From Actinomycetospora sp. NBRC 106375 (GTDB taxonomy: Bacteria > Actinomycetota > Actinomycetes > Mycobacteriales > Pseudonocardiaceae), in NCBI RefSeq assembly GCF_030269665.1, contig NZ_BSTS01000016.1:62001-126000 (forward strand): 64,000 nucleotides of DNA, in the 5' to 3' direction. Below the pieces are notes generated by a model that was not told the origin of the DNA, made no database searches, and was given only the letters and a program-made list of their open reading frames with translations. Position 1 is the first letter of the stretch. Each line of letters opens with the position of its first letter. Positions 4,508 through 24,396 of the stretch are shown one piece after another. Made by a program: the position numbers and the translations under genes.

Positions 4508-6601
4508 GTGACGAGCACGCTGGGGGACGGGCGCCCGTCCCCGTCGGTGGCGCCGGCGGTGGCGCACCTCGGTCCGCGGTACAAGTGGATCGCGCTGACC
4601 AACACGACGCTCGGCGTGCTGATCGTGACGATCAACATGTCGATCCTGCTGATCGCGCTGCCGGACATCTTCCGCGGCATCGCGCTCGACCCGCTGCAGC
4701 CGCAGAACATCAGCTACCTGCTGTGGCTGATCATGGGCTACCTCGTGGTGACCGCGGTCCTCGTCGTCACCTTCGGCCGCGTCGGCGACATGTTCGGGCG
4801 CACCCGGATGTACACGCTCGGGTTCGCGGTGTTCACCGTGTTCTCGATCCTGCTGGCCGTCACCTGGCTGCAGGGCGACGCGGGCGCGATCTGGCTGATC
4901 ACGATGCGCGTGCTGCAGGGCATCGGCGGCGCGCTGCTGCTCGCGAACTCGACGGCGATCCTCACCGACGCGTTCCCGTCCCACCAGCGCGGCCTCGCTC
5001 TGGGCATCAACTCGATCGCCGCCATCGCGGGCTCGTTCCTCGGCCTGATCATCGGCGGCGTGCTCGCCCCGGTCGCGTGGCACCTGGTGTTCATCGTGTC
5101 CGTGCCGATCGGCATCGGCGGCACGATCTGGGCCTGGTTCAAGCTCGAGGAGACCAGCGAGCGCCACGAGGGCCGCATCGACTGGTGGGGCAACATCACC
5201 TTCGCCGTCGGCCTCGTCGCGGTGCTCATGGGCATCACGTACGGGATCCAGCCCTACGGCGGGCACGTCATGGGCTGGACAAGCCCGACCGTGCTCGTCT
5301 GCCTCATCGGCGGTGTCGTGGTCCTCGCGGTCTTCGTGGCGGTCGAGCGGCGCGTCGCGCACCCGATGTTCCACCTGTCGCTGTTCGGCATCCGCTCGTT
5401 CACCGCGGGGAACATCGCCAACCTGCTCTCCGCGCTCGGGCGCGGCGGCCTGCAGTTCATCCTCATCATCTGGCTGCAGGGCATCTGGCTGCCCCGCCAC
5501 GGCTACGACTACGAGTCGACGCCCCTGTGGGCCGGCATCTACATGGTCCCGCTGACCATCGGCTTCCTCATCGCCGGACCGGTCTCGGGCTACCTCTCCG
5601 ACCGCCACGGCGCCCGCTGGTACGCCGCGGGCGGCATGCTCGTGGCCGCTGCGAGCTTCCTCGCCATGGGGTTCCTGCCGGTCGACTTCCCCTATCCGCT
5701 GTTCGCGGTGCTCCTCGCCGTCAACGGCCTCGCGATGGGGCTGTTCTCCTCGCCCAACCGGGCCTCGATCATGAACAGCGTCCCGGCCCGCCAGCGCGGC
5801 GCGGCCGCGGGGATGACCGCGACGTTCATGAACGGCGCGACGGTGCTCTCGATCGGCATCTTCTTCTCGATGCTGATCCTCGGGCTCGCGTCGACGCTGC
5901 CCACGGCGCTCTTCGGCGGGCTCACCGGCCAGGGCGTCCCGGCCGATGTCGCGGGCCGCATCGCCGAGCTCCCGCCGGTGAGCACGCTGTTCGCCGCGCT
6001 GCTGGGCTACAACCCGATCGAGACGCTGCTCGGTCCCGGCGTGCTGGCCCAGGTCGGCCCGCAACAGGCGGAGTTCCTCACCGGCCGCAGCTTCTTCCCC
6101 CAGCTCATCTCCGGCCCGTTCGCCGACGGTCTGTTCCTCGCGCTCGGCTTCGCCGCGGTCTGCTGCCTGGTGGCCGCGATCGCCTCGTTGTTCGACAGCG
6201 CGAAGCCCTCGCTGGAGCAGGCCGAGGCGCTCGGGGAGGAGCTGGGGCGCGAGGAGGACGAGGTCCGGCCGGTCGCCGCTCCGGCCCCCGGTCCCGGTGC
6301 CGCGCCGGTCGCCGGCGGGCGTCCCGTCGCCGTGGCCGGGCGCATCCTGGCGCCCGACGAGGCGCCGGCCGCGGCCGTGCTGACGCTCGTCGACGACCGC
6401 GGCCACGAGGCCGACCGCGCCGAGACCGACGCGGCGGGCCGCTTCACCCTCAGCGCCGACGGGCGCTCGGGCGACTACCTGGTGATCGCGACGCCGCGCG
6501 GGCGCGGCACGGCGGCCCCGGCCGCCACCCGCGTCACCGTCAACGGCTCGCCGGTGCACGTGGACGTCGTGCTGCAGGAGCGTGCGGCCCTGCCGCGCTG
6601 A
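4508..6601 (+). CDS. DHA2-type MFS transporter with C-terminal carboxypeptidase-regulatory-like module
   Basis: 697 residues from a GTG with CGGAGG upstream. Fourteen hydrophobic segments spread over about residues 30-560 match the drug:H+ antiporter-2 class (EmrB/QacA type); the motif GRVGDMFGRTRMY between helices 2 and 3 is MFS motif A. After a short Pro/Ala linker, residues about 604-697 form a beta-sandwich module of the carboxypeptidase-regulatory-like type (PVAVAGRILAPDE ... AVLTLVDDRGHEADRAETD ... GDYLVIATP ... VHVDVVL). Such a tail is not a usual part of MFS pumps. DHA2 pumps normally have a cytoplasmic C-terminus, so the module is predicted inside the cell. Substrate unknown. Confidence 0.88.
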   Translation: MTSTLGDGRPSPSVAPAVAHLGPRYKWIALTNTTLGVLIVTINMSILLIALPDIFRGIALDPLQPQNISYLLWLIMGYLVVTAVLVVTFGRVGDMFGRTRMYTLGFAVFTVFSILLAVTWLQGDAGAIWLITMRVLQGIGGALLLANSTAILTDAFPSHQRGLALGINSIAAIAGSFLGLIIGGVLAPVAWHLVFIVSVPIGIGGTIWAWFKLEETSERHEGRIDWWGNITFAVGLVAVLMGITYGIQPYGGHVMGWTSPTVLVCLIGGVVVLAVFVAVERRVAHPMFHLSLFGIRSFTAGNIANLLSALGRGGLQFILIIWLQGIWLPRHGYDYESTPLWAGIYMVPLTIGFLIAGPVSGYLSDRHGARWYAAGGMLVAAASFLAMGFLPVDFPYPLFAVLLAVNGLAMGLFSSPNRASIMNSVPARQRGAAAGMTATFMNGATVLSIGIFFSMLILGLASTLPTALFGGLTGQGVPADVAGRIAELPPVSTLFAALLGYNPIETLLGPGVLAQVGPQQAEFLTGRSFFPQLISGPFADGLFLALGFAAVCCLVAAIASLFDSAKPSLEQAEALGEELGREEDEVRPVAAPAPGPGAAPVAGGRPVAVAGRILAPDEAPAAAVLTLVDDRGHEADRAETDAAGRFTLSADGRSGDYLVIATPRGRGTAAPAATRVTVNGSPVHVDVVLQERAALPR

Positions 6602-6681
6602 GGCGAGCGGTCGTGTGGGGACCCCCACTCGGACGTCTTCGGTAATCCGATGGCAAAGAAGCGCTGCCACCGTCGGAGCGC

Positions 6682-7770
6682 GTGACCGGCTTCGACGAAC
6701 CCGAGCGCCGCCCGCGCACGCTGAGCGCCGTGACGATCCTGCTCACCGCCGCGGCGGGGGCGATCGACGTGGTGACCTACTTCGCCTTCAACCAGGTCTT
6801 CGCCAGCACGATGACCGGCAACCTGGTGCTCCTCGGTCTCGGGCTGGGCCAGGGGGACTGGACGCAGATCGCCGACAACATCTGCGCGATCGGCGGGTAC
6901 TGCGGCGGGCTGATCGCCGGCACGGTGTTCTGCGGGCTCGCGATGCGGCGCTGGCCCTGGCGCAACGCGGTGGGCGCGACGCTGACCTTCGAGCTCGCGC
7001 TGCTGCTCCTGCTGGGCGCGTTCTGGTACGGCGTCGATGACGACAGCCCGCTCGTGCAGTGGAAGGTCGTCGTGCTCGTCGTCGGTGCCGGGCTCGCGAT
7101 GGGCGTGCAGGCCGCCGCCGTGCGCTACGTCGGGCCGGCGGGAACGCCGACGAGCTTCATGTCCGGGACGATCACGAACTGGGTCTCGAGCCTCGTCGAG
7201 CTGCACAAGCCGTTCCGATGGAACTGGAACTCCCCGCTGCGCCTGCTCGCGGTGATCGTCGCGGCGGCCGGCAACGCCGTCGTCCAGCGCTTCGCCCCGG
7301 ACTGGTCGTTCGTGGCGCCCGTCGTGCTCGTGGCGATCGCGATCGTGCTGATGGCGGTCGTGACCCGGGCCAACAGCGGCGGGCTGACCGTCGGCGCGCC
7401 CCAGTTCGACCCGGACCCGCGCGCGGAGGTGCCCGACGCCGAGGTCGAGGAGGAGGACGCCGTCGGCGGCGCCGGACCCGTCCACGGGCGCGTGGTGGGC
7501 CTGGACGGCGACGCCCGCCCGGCCGTCCTGACCCTGGTCTCCGGCGGCGGCGAGCAGGTCGACCGCGTGCACACCGAGGTCGACGGCAGCTACCGCCTGG
7601 ACCCGGGCGAGTCGGGGGACTTCATGCTGATCTGCACCCCGCACCGCATGGGTGGCGGCGCCGCGCGCCCCCGCGCCGTGCTGATCTCGGTCGACGGCCG
7701 CCCGGTCGTGCACGACCTCGTCCTCGGCGCCGCCCCGGGCGAGGCGGGCCACCACCGGGCGCCGACCTGA
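6682..7770 (+). CDS. YoaK/DUF1275 membrane protein with the same C-terminal beta-sandwich module
   Basis: 362 residues, GTG start. Residues 13-230 carry six or seven membrane helices with the DUF1275 hallmarks AAGAIDVVTYFAF, STMTGNLVLLG and TSFMSGTITN. An acidic linker (EVPDAEVEEEDAVGG) leads to a module at about 266-352: PVHGRVVGLDGDARPAVLTL, then DGSYRLDPGESGDFMLICTP, then VSVDGRPVVHDLVL (I for V at the first position). The module is clearly of the same subfamily as the one on the preceding MFS gene. DUF1275 function is not established. It lies 80 bp after the MFS gene and may share its transcript. Confidence 0.85.
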   Translation: MTGFDEPERRPRTLSAVTILLTAAAGAIDVVTYFAFNQVFASTMTGNLVLLGLGLGQGDWTQIADNICAIGGYCGGLIAGTVFCGLAMRRWPWRNAVGATLTFELALLLLLGAFWYGVDDDSPLVQWKVVVLVVGAGLAMGVQAAAVRYVGPAGTPTSFMSGTITNWVSSLVELHKPFRWNWNSPLRLLAVIVAAAGNAVVQRFAPDWSFVAPVVLVAIAIVLMAVVTRANSGGLTVGAPQFDPDPRAEVPDAEVEEEDAVGGAGPVHGRVVGLDGDARPAVLTLVSGGGEQVDRVHTEVDGSYRLDPGESGDFMLICTPHRMGGGAARPRAVLISVDGRPVVHDLVLGAAPGEAGHHRAPT

Positions 7771-7779
7771 CTCGCCCTC

Positions 7780-7819
7780 GTGAGTAGTTGCGGCCCCTAT
7801 GGGGGCCCCGACTGCTCAC
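7780..7819. terminator. Bidirectional hairpin between converging genes
   Basis: Arms of 18 nt at 7780-7797 and 7802-7819 around the loop TATG pair with three imperfect positions, one of them G-U. There is no T tract. It sits exactly between the converging yoaK-like and yceI-like genes. Confidence 0.7.
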
Positions 7820-7824
7820 ATGGG

Positions 7825-8664
7825 TCAGGCCGCGCGGACCGCCTCGATGTCGATCTCGATCCGCAGGGTCCGGCCGACCGCGAAGATGCCCGCGATCACC
7901 GACTGGTTCCAGCGGATGTCGAAGTCGTCGCGGGAGAGCTGGGTCGTCGCGCTGAAGCCGGCGCGCTCGCCGCCCCAGAGGTCGGGCCCGGCGCCGTGGT
8001 AGACGACGTCGAGGTCGACGGTGTTTCGCACGCCCTTGAGCTCGAGGTCGCCGGTCATCGTCCAGTGGTCGGGGGTGTGGCCCGTGATCGCCGTGGACGT
8101 GAAGTCGATGCGCGGGAACGCGACGACGTCGAGGAAGTCGCCGGCGCGCAGGTGCGCGTCGCGCGTGTCGTCGTCGGTGTCGACGCTGGACGGGTCGATG
8201 GAGGCGTGGACGCGGCTGCCCGCCAGGTCGGCACCCATCTCGATGGACCCGGTGAACTGGCGCAGGCGCCCGTGCACCTTGGTGATCCCGAGGTGGAACG
8301 CCGAGGCGGCGATCCGCGAGTGCACGGGGTCGATGTCCCAGCGCCCGGGTGCGGGCAGGCTCAGGGCGCCGGTGCGGGTGAGCACGACGCGACCGAGGTC
8401 GCCGGAGCCGGCGAGCGGACGGGCCGCCGGGGTGTGGCCGACCGCCGAGGTGATCACGGTCGACGGCCCCTCGGGGAGCCCGTCGACGAGGAACGTACCG
8501 TCGCCGCCGACCGTCGCGCCGCCGATCTGGGTGCCGGCGGCGTCGATGACGGTGACGACCGCGAACGGCACGGGCCACCCGTCGCTGGTGACCGCGGCGC
8601 CCCGCACCCAGCCACCACCACGTGCGCCGGGAGCTGTCGGGGCCGTCCGCTCCCCGGCGCTCAC
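7825..8664 (-). CDS. YceI family protein with N-terminal carboxypeptidase-regulatory-like module
   Basis: 279 residues. The GTG start overlaps the stop of the upstream gene (GTGA), so the two are translationally coupled. Residues about 15-95 form one beta-sandwich module (VRGAAVTSDGWPVPFAVVTV ... GTFLVDGLPEGPSTVITSA). Residues about 105-279 are a YceI domain: WDIDPVHSRIAASAFHLGI, then GSIEMGADLAGSRVHASID, then the C-terminal FDIRWNQ block. YceI proteins are lipocalin-like and bind isoprenoid or other amphiphilic ligands. No signal peptide is visible, so it is predicted cytoplasmic, unlike the periplasmic E. coli YceI. Confidence 0.88.
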   Translation of the reverse strand: MSAGERTAPTAPGARGGGWVRGAAVTSDGWPVPFAVVTVIDAAGTQIGGATVGGDGTFLVDGLPEGPSTVITSAVGHTPAARPLAGSGDLGRVVLTRTGALSLPAPGRWDIDPVHSRIAASAFHLGITKVHGRLRQFTGSIEMGADLAGSRVHASIDPSSVDTDDDTRDAHLRAGDFLDVVAFPRIDFTSTAITGHTPDHWTMTGDLELKGVRNTVDLDVVYHGAGPDLWGGERAGFSATTQLSRDDFDIRWNQSVIAGIFAVGRTLRIEIDIEAVRAA

Positions 8665-9635
8665 CAGCGCTCGCCGCCGGTCTGGGGGGCCTCGGTGACG
8701 TCGTCGGTGTCGAGGTGGTGGACGTGCCGCCCGCCGAAGCCGTTGCCGTTGCCCGCGGCCGCGCCGTCGTCGCCGCGCGGGGCGTCGGGACGCGCCGGGG
8801 TGCCACCCGAGCCGGCCCCGTCCACCGCCGGCGGCATCAGGCTGAGCACGACGTCCGACGGGTGCCCGGGGCCGATCTCGATCTCCGAGGCCACCGGCGC
8901 GTAGCCGCTCGCGGTGATCGTGTAGATGCCGTGGGCCACGTCGTCGAAGCGGAACGAGCCGTCCTCGCCGGTGACGCGCGAGCCGACGACGTGCCCGTCC
9001 TCGCTGACCAGCGTCGCCAGCGCCTCGGCCACGGGACGCCCGGCGCCCGCCGAGCGCACCGTCCCGGAGAGCTGGGTCCGCGTCGCCAGCGCGACGTCGT
9101 GGGTGACGTGCCCCTCGCCCGGCACGCGCACCGTCTCGGCGACGGGCGCCAGGCGCGGGGCGGCGGCGGTGAGCGTGTAGGTGCCCTCGGTGAGGTCGGA
9201 GAAGCGGTAGGCGCCGTCGCCGCCCGAGCGCGTCACCGCGACGACGGTGCCGCGCACGTCGGTGAGCGTCAGCACGACGTCGCCCCACCCGCTGACGCCA
9301 CTGGCATCACTGCCGCCGTTGGTGCCGCCGCCGTGGCGCACGCCGACCGTGCCGCCGAGGGTGGCGCCGCCGCCGGTGAGCCCGACGTCGTGGCGCAGCG
9401 GGCGGTCGGCGACCGCGACGAGCGAGGCCGTCGGCTGGTGCGTCGACGAGGCGCAGATGACCAGGTACGTCCCGCCCGTCGGCGGCACGAGCTGGTAGTG
9501 CCCGCCCTCGTCGGCGGAGGCGCGGTCGAGCTGGTCGCCGGAGAGGTCGCACAGCGTCAGCGCCGCGCCGGGCACGGGCGCGCCGTCACCCCGGGTGACC
9601 CGACCGAAGATCATGATCGGTTCCTGTCCGTCCAC
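8661..9635 (-). CDS. Soluble protein built of three carboxypeptidase-regulatory-like modules
   Basis: 324 residues from a GTG with GAGAGG 9 nt upstream; an ATG seven codons later (9614) is possible. Three modules are visible: about residues 7-92 (IMIFGRVTRGDGAPVPGAAL ... GGTYLVICASS), 95-187 with a Gly/Ser-rich insertion (ATLGGTVGVRHGGG), and 188-275 (TQLSGTVRSAGAGRPVAEAL ... GIYTITASGYAPV). A disordered acidic/His-containing tail follows. No signal peptide, membrane helix or catalytic domain. It resembles the tail of the MFS transporter at about 22-24 kb without the pump. It is the first gene of a two-gene operon with the YceI protein. Confidence 0.82.
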   Translation of the reverse strand: MDGQEPIMIFGRVTRGDGAPVPGAALTLCDLSGDQLDRASADEGGHYQLVPPTGGTYLVICASSTHQPTASLVAVADRPLRHDVGLTGGGATLGGTVGVRHGGGTNGGSDASGVSGWGDVVLTLTDVRGTVVAVTRSGGDGAYRFSDLTEGTYTLTAAAPRLAPVAETVRVPGEGHVTHDVALATRTQLSGTVRSAGAGRPVAEALATLVSEDGHVVGSRVTGEDGSFRFDDVAHGIYTITASGYAPVASEIEIGPGHPSDVVLSLMPPAVDGAGSGGTPARPDAPRGDDGAAAGNGNGFGGRHVHHLDTDDVTEAPQTGGERW

Positions 9636-9778: not shown

Positions 9779-9798
9779 TGCTTGGATAGTACAAGCAT
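9779..9798. promoter_or_regulatory. Candidate operator TGCTTG-N7-CAAGCA
   Basis: Perfect inverted repeat TGCTTGGATAGTACAAGCA at 9779-9797. The minus strand of 9789-9798 reads ATGCTTGTAC, the same 10-mer that occurs upstream of the marR gene at 21031-21040. It lies in the divergent region between the module protein (minus) and the acyl-CoA dehydrogenase (plus). TACTAT on the minus strand could be a -10 box. The rest of 9636-9862 shows nothing else recognisable. Confidence 0.5.
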
Positions 9799-9862
9799 CA
9801 TCTCGCGCCGGCTCGTCGGTGATCGGATGGCGGGCGCCCGCCGACCGCGCCACGCTGGGGGC

Positions 9863-11107
9863 ATGCCCGAGCTCCCGTCCGACTTCCCGGCCCTGCCGCA
9901 GCCCGCCCTCGACCTCGACCCGGACCGGCGCGCGGTGGCGGACTTCTACGACTACGCCGACCTGCTCACCGACGAGGAGACGGCGACGCTGCGGCGCCTG
10001 CGGTCCTATCTCGCGCAGGACGTCGCGCCGCTGGTCGAGAACGCCTGGGAGCGCGCCGAGTTCCCGATGCAGCTGGTCAAGGGCTTCGCGGAGCTCGACC
10101 TCGCCGGGCTGCCCTACGGTCTCGGCACCGCGACCGACGAGCCCGCCCGCCGGCTCTTCCTCGGGTTCCTGCACGCCGAGATCGCGCGGGTCGACCCGTC
10201 GGTGAACAGCTTCTTCGGCATCCACACCGGCCTCGCGATGGGCTCGATCTGGGCCGGCGGGACCTCCGAGCAGCGGCAGCGCTGGCTGCCGTCGATGGCG
10301 CGGATGGAGACGATCGGCGCCTTCGGGCTCACCGAGCCGCACGGCGGGTCCGACGTCGCGGGCGGGATGGAGACCACCGCGCGCCGCGACGGGGACCACT
10401 GGGTGCTCGACGGCGACAAGCGCTGGATCGGCAACGCGACCTTCGCCGACGTGGTCGTCATCTGGGCGCGCGACCTCGAGACCGGCGAGGTGCGCGGGTT
10501 CGTCGTCCCGCGCGAGACCGAGGGCATGACGATCGCCAAGATCGAGGGCAAGACGGCGCTGCGCATCGTCCAGAACGCCGACATCGCGCTGCGCGGCGTG
10601 CGCGTCCCCGACGACCACCGCCTCGCGGGCGGCACGGGCACGTTCGCCGACGCGGGCGGGGTCCTGCGGGTCACCCGCGGCAACGCCTCCTGGGGCGCGA
10701 CCGGCACGCAGATGGGCGCCTACGAGCTCGCGCTGTCCTACGCCGGGCAGCGGGAGCAGTTCGGCCGCCCGATCGCCGGGTTCCAGCTCATGCAGGACCT
10801 GCTCGTCTCGATGCTCGGCAACGTCACCGCGTCGCTGGGGATGGCCGTGCGCAACGCCCAGCTCCTGGACGCGGGACGGGGCTCCGACGCCCACTCGGCG
10901 CTGGCCAAGGAGTTCTGCGCGAGCCGCATGCGCGAGACCGTGGCCTGGGCCCGCCAGCTCGTCGGCGGCAACGGGGTGATCCTCGGCAACGGTGTCGCGC
11001 GCTACTTCGCCGACGCCGAGGCCCTCTACTCCTTCGAGGGCACGCGGGAGATGAACACGCTGATCGTGGGGAAGGCGGTCACCGGCCAGAGCGCGTTCGT
11101 ACGCTGA
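9863..11107 (+). CDS. Acyl-CoA dehydrogenase (glutaryl-CoA dehydrogenase/ACX4-like)
   Basis: 414 residues from the ATG at 9863; an in-frame GTG at 9782 would add 27 unlikely residues. FAD-dependent flavoprotein. Conserved blocks are FGLTEPHGGSD (flavin/substrate binding), RWIGNATFADV, REQFGRPIAGFQLMQD, and near the C-terminus YSFEGTREMNTLIVG, whose Glu matches the catalytic base of the glutaryl-CoA dehydrogenase group. The substrate could be glutaryl-CoA or another short acyl-CoA. It is divergent from the module/YceI operon. Confidence 0.88.
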   Translation: MPELPSDFPALPQPALDLDPDRRAVADFYDYADLLTDEETATLRRLRSYLAQDVAPLVENAWERAEFPMQLVKGFAELDLAGLPYGLGTATDEPARRLFLGFLHAEIARVDPSVNSFFGIHTGLAMGSIWAGGTSEQRQRWLPSMARMETIGAFGLTEPHGGSDVAGGMETTARRDGDHWVLDGDKRWIGNATFADVVVIWARDLETGEVRGFVVPRETEGMTIAKIEGKTALRIVQNADIALRGVRVPDDHRLAGGTGTFADAGGVLRVTRGNASWGATGTQMGAYELALSYAGQREQFGRPIAGFQLMQDLLVSMLGNVTASLGMAVRNAQLLDAGRGSDAHSALAKEFCASRMRETVAWARQLVGGNGVILGNGVARYFADAEALYSFEGTREMNTLIVGKAVTGQSAFVR

Positions 11108-21030: not shown

Positions 21031-21064
21031 ATGCTTGTACCCAGCAACCGATTGTACGGAGCAT
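21031..21064. promoter_or_regulatory. Candidate MarR operator ATGCTTGTAC-N13-GTACGGAGCAT
   Basis: Two half-sites in inverted orientation, 21031-21040 and 21054-21064, lie immediately before the marR start codon and would allow autoregulation. The left half is identical to a 10-mer in the divergent region at 9789-9798. TTGTAC also occurs twice as a direct repeat (21035-21040, 21052-21057). The remaining 220 bp back to the hydratase gene show no gene or clear signal. Confidence 0.5.
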
Positions 21065-21067
21065 GCA

Positions 21068-21601
21068 ATGGATTCCTCGCGGCTCCCGGCCCCGCCGCCG
21101 GGTGCGGACGACCGCTGGTTCGTGTCCGACCGTCTCGGGCACCAGCTGATCCGTGTCATGCGGGCCATGGAGCGGGCGAAGGCGGCCAAGTCCGTCGGCG
21201 TCGACGGCGTCGAGAGGGCGGCCTACGTCCTGCTCGCCCGCCTCGTCCTCGAGGGTCCGCGACGGTCGAACGCGCTGGCCGAGTCGGTGCATTCCGACCC
21301 GTCCACCGTCAGCCGCCAGGTCGCCGGGCTCGTCCGGGCCGGGCTCGTCGAGCGCCGCCCGGACCCCGAGGACGGCCGCGCCACCCTGCTCGCGCCCACC
21401 GCCGAGGGCCTGCGTGTCTTCCAGGCCAACCGCGACCGCCGGAACCGCCAGATCAGCGCCATGACCGAGCACTGGGACGAGGCCGACCGCACGCGGCTCG
21501 TCGAGCTGCTCGAGCGCCTGGCCGGCGACATCGAGCACCAGCACGCCACCACCACCCCCGCCCCGCCGTCGGCCGCCGTGAGCGGCCAGGAGGCCTCATG
21601 A
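21068..21601 (+). CDS. MarR-family transcriptional regulator
   Basis: 177 residues from the ATG at 21068, with GGAG seven nt upstream. Winged-helix region: VERAAYVLLARLVLEGPRRS, then the recognition helix HSDPSTVSRQVAGLVRAGLV, then the wing RRPDPEDGRATLLAPTAEG. MarR dimers typically repress neighbouring efflux genes until a ligand binds. Its stop overlaps the start of the MFS gene (ATGA), so the pump is almost surely its target. Confidence 0.9.
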   Translation: MDSSRLPAPPPGADDRWFVSDRLGHQLIRVMRAMERAKAAKSVGVDGVERAAYVLLARLVLEGPRRSNALAESVHSDPSTVSRQVAGLVRAGLVERRPDPEDGRATLLAPTAEGLRVFQANRDRRNRQISAMTEHWDEADRTRLVELLERLAGDIEHQHATTTPAPPSAAVSGQEAS

Positions 21602-24396
21602 GTTCGCCCGCCGTCGCCGCAGCTCCCCCGGCGGCCGCCCCCACCCCGAACAGCATCGGCTTCACCCACCGGCAGATCCTCGTGATCCTCTCGGGCCTGA
21701 TGCTGGGGATGTTCCTGGCCGCCCTCGACCAGAACATCGTCTCCACCTCGATCCGCACCATCGCCGACGACCTGCAGGGCCTCAACCTGCAGGCGTGGGC
21801 CACGACGGCGTACCTGATCACTGCGACGATCTCGACCCCGCTCTACGGCAAGCTCTCGGACCAGTACGGGCGCAAGCCGTTCTTCCTCTTCGCGATCGGC
21901 ACCTTCGTCCTCGGCTCGGTGCTCTGCACGATCTCGACGTCGATGTACGAGCTCGCGGCGTTCCGCGCCGTGCAGGGCCTCGGCGCCGGCGGCCTCATGT
22001 CGCTGGCCCTGACGATCATCGGTGACATCGTCCCGCCGCGGGAGCGCGCCCGCTACCAGGGCTTCTTCCTCGCGGTGTTCGGCACGGCGAGCGTCATCGG
22101 CCCGGTGGTCGGCGGGTTCCTCGCCGGCCAGAGCGAGATCCTCGGCATCACCGGCTGGCGCTGGGTCTTCCTCGTCAACGTCCCGATCGGCATCGTCGCC
22201 TTCGCGGTCGTCATGCGGGTGCTCAACCTCCCGCACACCCGCCGTGAGCACCGCATCGACTTCCGGGGCGCGGTCGCCCTCGCCGTCGCCCTCGTGCCGC
22301 TGCTGATCATCGCCGAGCAGGGCCGCGAGTGGGGCTGGGGCTCCGTCTCGGCGATCGTCTGCTACGTCATCGGCGCCGTCGGCCTCGTCGCGTTCTACCT
22401 GGCCGAGCGGTCCTACGGCGAGGACGCGCTGCTGCCGCTGCGGCTCTTCCGCAACGGCGTGTTCAGCCTGACGTCGATCATCGCGGTGATCACCGGCATC
22501 GGCATGTTCGGCGGCATCGCGATCGTCCCGCAGTACCTGCAGATCGTCACCGGCGCGACCCCCACCGAGGCCGGCCTGCAGATGATCCCGCTGGTCGGCG
22601 GGATCATGACCGCCTCGATCATCTCGGGCCAGCTCACCAGCCGGACCGGCCGCTACAAGATCTTCCCGGTGATCGGCCTCGGGCTGATGACCGTCGGCAT
22701 GCTGCTGTTCCATTTCCTCCTGCACGCCGACACCCCGTACTGGGAGATCGCCGTGCTGATGGTCGTGTTCGGCCTCGGGCTCGGGAACTGCATGCAGACC
22801 CTCGTGCTCGCGGTACAGAACGCGGTGCCGGCCAAGGACATGGGTGTCGCGACGGCGTCGGCCACGTTCTTCCGGCAGATGGGCGGCACGCTCGGCGTGG
22901 CGGTCTTCCTCTCGGTGCTGTTCTCCACCGTCGGCGACAAGATCCGCGAGGCCTTCACCCAGATCGCCCCGACGCCCGCGTTCCAGGCGGCCGTGGCCGA
23001 CCCGACGATCGCGGCGAACCCGGCCAACCAGGTCGCGCTGAACCCGGCCGCCGGCGCGGTCCAGGTGGCGCAGGACTCCTCGGTGCTGCAGCGGATGGAC
23101 GGGCGGCTCGCCGAGCCGTTCCTCGTCGGGTTCTCGAACGCGATGGACCTGGTCTTCCTCATCGCCGCGTGCATCATCGTCGTCGGCTTCGTGCTCGTGC
23201 TGTTCCTGCGGGAGGTCCCGCTGCGCACCCAGTCGGGCATCCAGGCCCGCGACGCCGAGGACACGAGCACGCCGACCGGCGCGGCCGTCGGCGGCGCCAC
23301 CGCCGGCGCGGCCGCGCACAACACGGTCAACGACGCGCCGCCCGTGCCCGCCGCCGACGGCGCGCGGTCCGGCGCGCACGGTCTGGCGGCGTCGACCGTC
23401 CCGATGGCCCCGATGCCCGCCGCCGCGCCCGGCCCCGCGTGGCAGGCCCGGCGGCCGGAGCCGGCCTGGGGCCCGCCGAGCACGGCCGACGCCGTCCGGC
23501 AGCCCGTCCGGCAGCCCGTCCGGCAGCCCCTGCGGCCCAGCCCGGCGCCGCGGGGGGCGGCCGGGCCGACGGTCCACGGCCGGGTCTCCGGCGTCGGTGG
23601 CAGCCCGGTCACGGCCGACGACGAGGTGACGGTGTCGTTGCACGGTCTGGACGGCGCGCCGCTGCAGCGCACCGGCCTCGACCCGGACGGGGCGTTCGCC
23701 CTGCAGGCGCCGGCCTCGGGCACCTACGTGCTCATCGCCAGCTCGCCGCGACGGCGCCCGTTCGCCGAGCTCGTGAGCGTCGACGGCGTGCCTGTGCGTC
23801 GCGACGTCGCCCTGGCCCGGGTGGCGACGCTCGGCGGGCGGGTCGCGGAGGCCGACGGCACCCCCGTCGCCGGCGCGACCGTCACGGTCACCGACCCCGG
23901 CGGCGGTGTCGTCGCCGTGCGGCGCAGCGACGCCGACGGCGCCTGGGAGAGCGGGGAGTGCGAGCCGGGCAGCTACACGGTCACGGTGCTCGCGCCCGGC
24001 CGGTCGCCGCAGGCCGCCCGGGTCGTGGTCGGCGAGGACGGCGCCCGCCAGGACGTGACGGTGCCGCCTGCCCGGTACTCGCTCTCCGGGGCCGTGCGCG
24101 GGACCGGGGGGACGCCGGTGCCCGAGTCGCTGGTGGTGCTCGTGGGCCGTGACGGCGCGGTGGTCGCCTCGGCGGTCACCGGCCCGGACGGGCGGTTCCG
24201 TCTCGACGGCATCACCCCCGGGCGGCACATGCTCACCGCGAGCGGCTTCGCGCCGGTCACCGAGCAGGTCGTCGTCGACGGCACCGGACGCGACCTGGAG
24301 CTGACGGTGACCCCGCCCCGCCCGGCCACGCGCGAGGACGCCGACGGCGCGGGCGGACGCCACGAGGCGCCGGCCCACGAGGCGCTGACGCGCTGA
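21598..24396 (+). CDS. EmrB/QacA-type MFS exporter with three C-terminal carboxypeptidase-regulatory-like modules
   Basis: 932 residues, about 400 more than a typical DHA2 pump. ATG start with CCAGGAGG upstream. Fourteen hydrophobic segments cover about residues 25-545; motif A is GKLSDQYGRKPFF and motif C-like GFFLAVFGTASVIGPVVGG. A disordered Ala/Pro linker follows, including three VRQP repeats. Then come three beta-sandwich modules: about 657-742 (TVHGRVSGVGGSPV ... GTYVLIASSP), 742-825 (ATLGGRVAEADGTPVAGATV) and 826-910 (YSLSGAVRGTGGTPVPESLV). The first matches the modules at 4.5-9.6 kb most closely. MarR context suggests drug or toxic-lipid export. Confidence 0.9.
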   Translation: MSSPAVAAAPPAAAPTPNSIGFTHRQILVILSGLMLGMFLAALDQNIVSTSIRTIADDLQGLNLQAWATTAYLITATISTPLYGKLSDQYGRKPFFLFAIGTFVLGSVLCTISTSMYELAAFRAVQGLGAGGLMSLALTIIGDIVPPRERARYQGFFLAVFGTASVIGPVVGGFLAGQSEILGITGWRWVFLVNVPIGIVAFAVVMRVLNLPHTRREHRIDFRGAVALAVALVPLLIIAEQGREWGWGSVSAIVCYVIGAVGLVAFYLAERSYGEDALLPLRLFRNGVFSLTSIIAVITGIGMFGGIAIVPQYLQIVTGATPTEAGLQMIPLVGGIMTASIISGQLTSRTGRYKIFPVIGLGLMTVGMLLFHFLLHADTPYWEIAVLMVVFGLGLGNCMQTLVLAVQNAVPAKDMGVATASATFFRQMGGTLGVAVFLSVLFSTVGDKIREAFTQIAPTPAFQAAVADPTIAANPANQVALNPAAGAVQVAQDSSVLQRMDGRLAEPFLVGFSNAMDLVFLIAACIIVVGFVLVLFLREVPLRTQSGIQARDAEDTSTPTGAAVGGATAGAAAHNTVNDAPPVPAADGARSGAHGLAASTVPMAPMPAAAPGPAWQARRPEPAWGPPSTADAVRQPVRQPVRQPLRPSPAPRGAAGPTVHGRVSGVGGSPVTADDEVTVSLHGLDGAPLQRTGLDPDGAFALQAPASGTYVLIASSPRRRPFAELVSVDGVPVRRDVALARVATLGGRVAEADGTPVAGATVTVTDPGGGVVAVRRSDADGAWESGECEPGSYTVTVLAPGRSPQAARVVVGEDGARQDVTVPPARYSLSGAVRGTGGTPVPESLVVLVGRDGAVVASAVTGPDGRFRLDGITPGRHMLTASGFAPVTEQVVVDGTGRDLELTVTPPRPATREDADGAGGRHEAPAHEALTR
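23494..23529 (+). repeat. 12-bp tandem repeat x3 (VRQP)
   Basis: GTCCGGCAGCCC is repeated three times inside the linker of the MFS exporter, the third copy exact. Copy number could vary without breaking the frame. Confidence 0.85.

Follow-up and report, generated by a model that had tools for sequence, protein, structure and literature searches.

Analysis of a 64,000-nucleotide stretch of the Actinomycetospora sp. NBRC 106375 genome (hereafter the window; contig NZ_BSTS01000016.1, positions 62,001–126,000; genome size 6.79 Mb) revealed a DHA2-type efflux pump of the major facilitator superfamily (MFS), a soluble protein and a lipocalin-type YceI protein that are encoded side by side and share a beta-sandwich module. 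The arrangement occurs in many actinobacteria and points to a hitherto overlooked export machine, with the module as a possible docking element between its parts. The pump tails consist of transthyretin/prealbumin-like beta-sandwich modules, usually three in the order m1-m2-m3 (a triad), with one m1-type module in the pump of the window locus, and in some genera a soluble protein with the same triad is encoded beside the pump. A class of YceI (lipocalin-like) proteins with a module type of its own, mY, is encoded nearly always directly behind a triad gene, and wherever the frame allowed a judgement, the soluble partners carry no signal peptide. The strongest fact is a one-sided dependence: mY-bearing YceI proteins occur nearly always with a triad, and triads occur often without YceI, as would be expected if YceI were a client that docks on the triad.

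In the window, the YceI protein (7825–8664, reverse strand, GTG start; PF04264, 138.3 bits, cut-off 23.7) begins with an mY module (8374–8610, reverse; 75.6 bits with the mY hidden Markov model [HMM] described below), and its start overlaps by four bases with the end of a free-standing three-module protein, here called FREE (8661–9635, reverse; PF13620, 111.9 bits in 3 stretches). The likely start of FREE is the GTG at 9635, and its modules, all on the reverse strand, are m1 (9372–9617, 111.9 bits), m2 (9078–9365, 76.8 bits) and m3 (8835–9077, 94.6 bits). On the forward strand, the DHA2-type MFS pump DHA2a (4508–6601; MFS_1, 144.7 bits), the core of which is 63–94% identical to nine relatives, ends in one m1-type module (6326–6583; m1 HMM, 63.1 bits), as does the DUF1275/YoaK membrane protein (6682–7770; PF06912, 95.3 bits, cut-off 25.4; module at 7477–7734, m1 HMM, 65.2 bits). 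A second DHA2 pump, MFS3 (21598–24396, forward; TIGR00711, 262.0 bits, cut-off 230.2), ends in m1 (23563–23823, 70.5 bits), m2 (23827–24072, 67.4 bits) and m3 (24079–24306, 62.5 bits) on the same strand. An initial annotation of the window had placed the module in the four adjoining genes and three copies of it in MFS3; these positions hold, with a total of nine modules in five proteins.

The Pfam gathering cut-off of CarboxypepD_reg (PF13620; 32.3 bits) was exceeded by FREE, MFS3 (100.4 bits, 3 stretches) and YceI (33.5 bits). The DHA2a tail was borderline (27.2 bits in the Pfam run; 32.1 in the genome search, or 32.4 with its neighbours in frame), and a Pfam scan of the window YoaK gave no PF13620 match. 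Among position-specific HMMs for m1, m2, m3 and mY, the m1 model recognised both of these tails. The models were trained solely on other genera, with the Actinomycetospora loci excluded; the training set comprised 133 triads and 36 YceI modules, included some loci twice and was thinned to 33, 35, 30 and 21 sequences. As generic background we used 20 PF13620 loci of the class from 29 supplied, excluding frames with a transporter or YceI core (L102, L104, L107, L109, L111, L115, L120 and L121) and one triad (L116); the highest background scores were 32.6 (m1), 53.5 (m2), 47.6 (m3) and 33.7 bits (mY). Each module of FREE and MFS3 scored highest with the HMM of its own array position, in order. 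The modules thus match one another better than generic carboxypeptidase-regulatory domains, since their cross-genus HMM scores exceed the 20-locus background, and at the level of sequence comparison the shared module noted in the initial annotation is confirmed, more strongly than could be seen there. The YoaK module, too, is real, because it scores 65 bits with the other-genus m1 HMM against at most 33 in the background and the tail is present in all copies aligned. The residue pattern proposed for the modules is partly general to PF13620. An alignment of 16 modules from this genome shows three glycines that never vary and the consensus V-T-L-V-D. The position-specific scores rule out one module type for all proteins, and the single common module first envisaged is replaced by the four subtypes m1, m2, m3 and mY.

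The searches covered samples of the family (150 genomes, 44 genera), the class (296 genomes, 106 genera) and the phylum (149 genomes), and the link between mY and the triad was examined in the family and the class. A profile of module-bearing YceI proteins gave two separated groups, at about 326 bits and above and at about 241–290 bits, with plain YceI proteins lower. In the class sample, a triad gene lay directly upstream of YceI in 22/22 members of the top group, and in the family sample 61/66 mY-YceI genes adjoined a triad, the own genome being included in both counts. Pooled with the own genome counted once, 82 of the 87 distinct mY-YceI genes adjoin a triad gene; in the family sample a triad denotes an adjoining frame with at least two modules, and some family loci were also part of HMM training. 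None of the 27 other YceI loci read had an adjoining triad: 0/19 (family; within about 3 kb; hand-picked from 33 listed) and 0/2 (class) for YceI proteins with the second module type, and 0/6 (class) for plain YceI. Fisher p values for mY-YceI versus these controls were 5e-18 without and 2e-21 with plain YceI, and are overstated because the genomes are related rather than independent. A second YceI protein of the own genome (L011:5181–6566, contig C24) has a different N-terminal module (mY 24.3 bits, best 25.9 bits) and lies in the background range. Since the second type lacked a triad neighbour in the 19 family loci read, membership of all module-bearing YceI proteins was rejected. The five mY-YceI genes without an adjoining triad (L364, L365, L366, L369 and L342) all belong to one genus, g41 (genomes G055, G088, G115, G150 and G165), of which a sixth genome, G134, has the triad. 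These five genomes have 5–6 tail-profile matches each, which in G115, G150 and G165 fall in frames of 877–887 amino acids, and the short frame upstream of YceI in L342 and L366, which matches the module very weakly (14 bits), is possibly a remnant.

Reading of pump loci showed the complete order, a three-module pump followed by a free triad and then mY-YceI, in G042 (L245), G127 (L246), G078, G158 and G143, all of genus g28; for the last three the order was pieced together from two overlapping fetches each. A three-module pump is followed by a free triad in L240, L242 and L243, and a free triad by mY-YceI in L244. The recurring set comprises pump, free triad and mY-YceI, leaving out YoaK. When 30 loci with orthologues of the pump core were read, three modules were seen in 14, a single one in 7 (all Actinomycetospora) and none in 9; a free triad lies behind 11/14 three-module pumps versus 0/9 tailless pumps (within about 1.5 kb). 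FREE is therefore an old partner, and it is the window pump that has the shorter tail. The idea that FREE is a pump fragment detached in Actinomycetospora alone was rejected, since other genera have both the three-module pump and the free triad. Four-base overlaps of start and stop codons occur in 8/31 gene pairs read, including the window FREE-YceI pair. The tailless orthologues (L276, L278, L279 and L281–L286) constitute natural controls for the role of the tail.

The module fusions recur in related genomes, across both family and class, as had been expected. The tail profile matched 112/150 genomes and 34/44 genera in the family sample (E 1e-5) and 71/296 genomes and 24/106 genera in the class sample (E 1e-8); in the phylum sample, three-module arrays turned up in 6 genomes, each of which belongs to this class (E 1e-25). 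Other genera usually have a DHA2-type pump with an m1-m2-m3 tail, often with an mY-YceI gene behind it; the pump mostly continues for 2 to 8 residues after m3, although up to 52 occur and L096 has 222. At least 587 matches were obtained, and named triad carriers among the 80 best include Streptomyces, Pseudonocardia, Saccharopolyspora, Actinopolyspora, Actinomadura and Gandjariella, and one copy is annotated merely as 'MFS transporter'. Within Actinomycetospora (the window and 15 further loci, with L053 and L062 truncated where their contigs stop), the free triad and an acyl-CoA dehydrogenase are present in 16/16 loci, an adjoining YceI in 14/16, DHA2a in 13/16 and a tailed YoaK in 10/16. In the stretches fetched, no DHA2a was found in L055 and no YceI in L057, and the YceI module of L055 is split across two frames.

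As for the side of the membrane, the whole open frame of the L245 free triad leaves 4 residues before m1, and mY begins at frame residue 6–8 (5–7 residues before it) in L245, L246, L313, L314, L317 and L319, so there is no place for a signal peptide. In the window YceI, no hydrophobic segment was seen before mY on reading, no signal-peptide program having been run. DHA2 pumps have both termini inside. About 14 long helices were counted in the AlphaFold model of DHA2a (predicted local distance difference test [pLDDT] 52), and crude hydropathy gave 15; because this model is too poor, the sidedness of the pump tails rests on what is known of DHA2 pumps, which are described as 14-spanners in PMC11632069. 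The initial prediction that all modules are cytoplasmic is thereby supported for the soluble parts, at several loci, and for the pump tails depends on this family knowledge. Topology from charge counts was uninformative and was dropped.

FREE was predicted to form three beta sandwiches (pLDDT 84.1). Foldseek matched it to tandem CnaB/pilin and SdrD folds, with query template modelling scores of 0.12–0.36 among the 50 matches listed; the matches therefore cover single domains. When the triad profile was compared with PDB sequences, the top match was NOMO2 (9c7v, 86.5 bits). NOMO is a membrane protein that bears related beta sandwiches in series, located in the lumen of the endoplasmic reticulum; unlike the triad system, the NOMO/BOS complex is eukaryotic and includes neither pump nor YceI. 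Small actinobacterial DUF1416/SseC-like proteins belong to the same fold class with a single module each; FREE is also matched by PF07210 (36.6 bits, cut-off 23), and the DUF1416 protein of the own genome, L013, scored 128.5 bits with DUF1416 and just 21.5 bits with the tail profile.

For the pumps, the membrane parts are like those of the DHA2 efflux pumps OtrB/Tcr3, EmrB, QacA and LfrA. MFS3 scored 501.5 bits with the OtrB tetracycline-pump model, below its cut-off of 999, and this model covers residues 10–555 of 932, stopping before the modules; DHA2a scored 162.4 bits with TIGR00711, under 230.2, and is thus DHA2-like without being filed as a member by that model. We know of no cytosolic triad or YceI partner for DHA2 pumps. 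The nearest solved chain to the YceI part is TT1927b (1wub, 177.5 bits), which binds polyisoprenoid, and the YceI domain is common to the window protein, TT1927b, E. coli YceI and BcnA. E. coli YceI is secreted. The window protein differs from the secreted YceI and BcnA proteins in its N-terminal mY, in that no signal peptide was seen and in its gene partner, a triad or pump. BcnA is secreted, and in the BcnA-LcoA-PsrA group of Gram-negatives the lipocalin gene is generally linked to the gene for a membrane protein, a cytochrome b561; shared modules go unmentioned in the abstract of the article on it (PMC9113575). The tie of a lipocalin gene to a membrane-protein gene is the likeness between the two cases, and the window YceI is flanked by FREE and YoaK, not by a cytochrome b561. 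No description of a system of pump, triad and mY-YceI was found in the open-licence PMC literature, a coverage outside which most subscription papers fall.

These observations are compatible with a cytosolic accessory system of DHA2 pumps, made up of a pump with a docking tail, a soluble triad adaptor and an mY-tagged YceI carrier, a reading that we consider plausible at slightly less than even confidence. The pump tail would lie on the cytosolic face, and the triad, pump-borne or free, would keep the mY-tagged YceI carrier where the pump opens to the cytosol. A lipophilic or amphiphilic compound, similar to an isoprenoid or a drug, would be captured in the barrel of YceI and passed to the pump for proton-driven export, and the MarR and TetR regulators adjoining several pumps may sense the toxic compound. 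In Actinomycetospora, the m1-type tails on YoaK and other transporters could place these proteins in the same assemblies. A wider version, in which mY-addressed cytosolic YceI brings a lipophilic metabolite or toxin to the DHA2 triad dock, making these carrier-fed MFS pumps a new kind of export machine, and about 11 membrane proteins of Actinomycetospora, reached by the spread of a related address, form a shared cytosolic export hub, is more tentative, and we hold it as a minority possibility.

Several points weigh against a docking system. Module-bearing YceI lies behind the triad in just 14 of the 78 named loci outside the genus (one of them, L171, with a split frame, and some of the 78 truncated by contig ends), so the triad does not need YceI; the tail is missing from 9/30 orthologues of the same pump core; and no four-base overlap is present in 23/31 gene pairs. 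The predicted template modelling score of FREE is 0.57, so that its domain arrangement is uncertain, the AlphaFold pump model is poor (pLDDT 52.2), and the stretch past the final hydrophobic segment shows no net positive charge (mean −1.5, n = 122). The missing tails also agree with an alternative in which the modules are caps for stability, folding or oligomerisation that cluster membrane proteins, the gene order being operon history. Such caps would account for the occurrence of the module, within a single genome, on YoaK, a FUSC-type protein and nine MFS proteins. Free triads and mY-YceI proteins, however, are soluble and offer nothing in the membrane that a cap could serve, the position-specific types persist from genus to genus, and adjacency is missing for the other module-bearing YceI proteins (0/19 read); we regard this explanation as rather improbable.

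Transthyretin-like folds can bind small hydrophobic ligands, and the modules might instead be cytosolic substrate- or effector-binding domains that gate the pump allosterically, with the free triad and YceI buffering the ligand without docking. The MarR and TetR neighbours, the conserved position-specific residues of each module and the single m1-type tails on several transporters all speak for such gating, which nevertheless leaves unexplained why one YceI class has its own module type tied to triads (82/87); on balance it appears unlikely, if deserving of more weight than the caps. Extracytoplasmic, cell-wall-binding modules would be usual for this domain class, and most of the nearest solved folds come from proteins at a surface or in a lumen (pilins, SdrD, NOMO2). 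Against this location stand the lack of room for a signal peptide in the free triads and mY-YceI proteins of several loci, the 14-spanner topology of DHA2 pumps with both ends inside, and the Usp domain that adjoins the module in L018, and we judge it very improbable.

The initial annotation had counted YoaK among the parts of the shared system. In the family sample, tailed YoaK was present in 7/7 Actinomycetospora genomes and was not found outside this genus, where two weaker matches end before the tail; YoaK was consequently dropped as a core component. The tail is present in 9/9 YoaK copies with intact frames that were aligned. Among the 15 same-genus loci, YoaK is duplicated in L050, L052 and L056, has a broken-looking frame in L054 and in one copy of L056, and was not found in L059, L061 and L062. 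A tree built from first modules places the YoaK tails as sister group of the DHA2a tails of the genus (89/87; fork not starred, few columns), and alignments read by eye show a short insertion common to both behind an (A/C)TP motif. Judged from these sequences, the tail was probably copied between the neighbouring YoaK and DHA2a genes.

A search of the own genome with a profile of 11 tail modules matched 18 places. Together with Pfam, this identified 11 membrane proteins with the module, namely nine MFS proteins (DHA2a, MFS3, L009, L010, L014, L015, L017, L018 and L067), one FUSC-type protein (weak) and YoaK; the non-membrane carriers are FREE, YceI and, weakly, the DUF1416 protein L013. The tails of L014 and L017 scored 48.5 and 46.8 bits with m1, above background and lower than the other tails. 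Membership of the FUSC-type tail (L016:5572–8013, contig C12; m1 25.8 bits) is weak because its score lies within the background range of the cross-genus HMMs. In L018:5868–8261 (contig C6), one chain comprises an MFS part, a Usp domain and the tail module. A protein of a same-genus genome (L068:9868–11397) ends in a CarboxypepD_reg domain and contains about 8 hydrophobic segments, although it matches no membrane family of Pfam.

MarR or TetR genes lie beside 6/9 loci, according to Pfam assignment of ten hand-picked neighbours: MarR beside L134, L160, L168, L066 and L065, and TetR beside L142 and L066. The other neighbours were Usp (L137) and cupin (L130), with no match for L242. A plasmid copy in Streptomyces anthocyanicus has TetR and MarR genes immediately upstream, and in the window a MarR-family regulator (21035–21601, forward; PF01047, 43.5 bits) has a four-base overlap with MFS3. 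These neighbours would fit inducible export of toxic compounds. The acyl-CoA dehydrogenase of the window (9782–11107, forward; Pfam), divergent from FREE, is kept beside the free triad and may be functionally linked to it. Rfam gave no RNA-element match in window positions 1–30000, and a role in anti-phage defence was dropped, there being no PADLOC match among the 5 proteins.

To our knowledge, such MFS efflux pumps are generally regarded as independent of cytosolic partners. If the proposed system is correct, one group of actinobacterial DHA2 pumps, present in many Streptomyces genomes and in 34/44 sampled genera of the window's family, would use a dedicated cytosolic adaptor and a lipocalin-type carrier, and functions would be provided for free carboxypeptidase-regulatory and module-bearing YceI proteins that have so far had none. 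The address code of m1, m2, m3 and mY renders the question of docking directly testable. The same system would suggest a route by which hydrophobic metabolites and antibiotics pass from the interior of the producer to the exporter.

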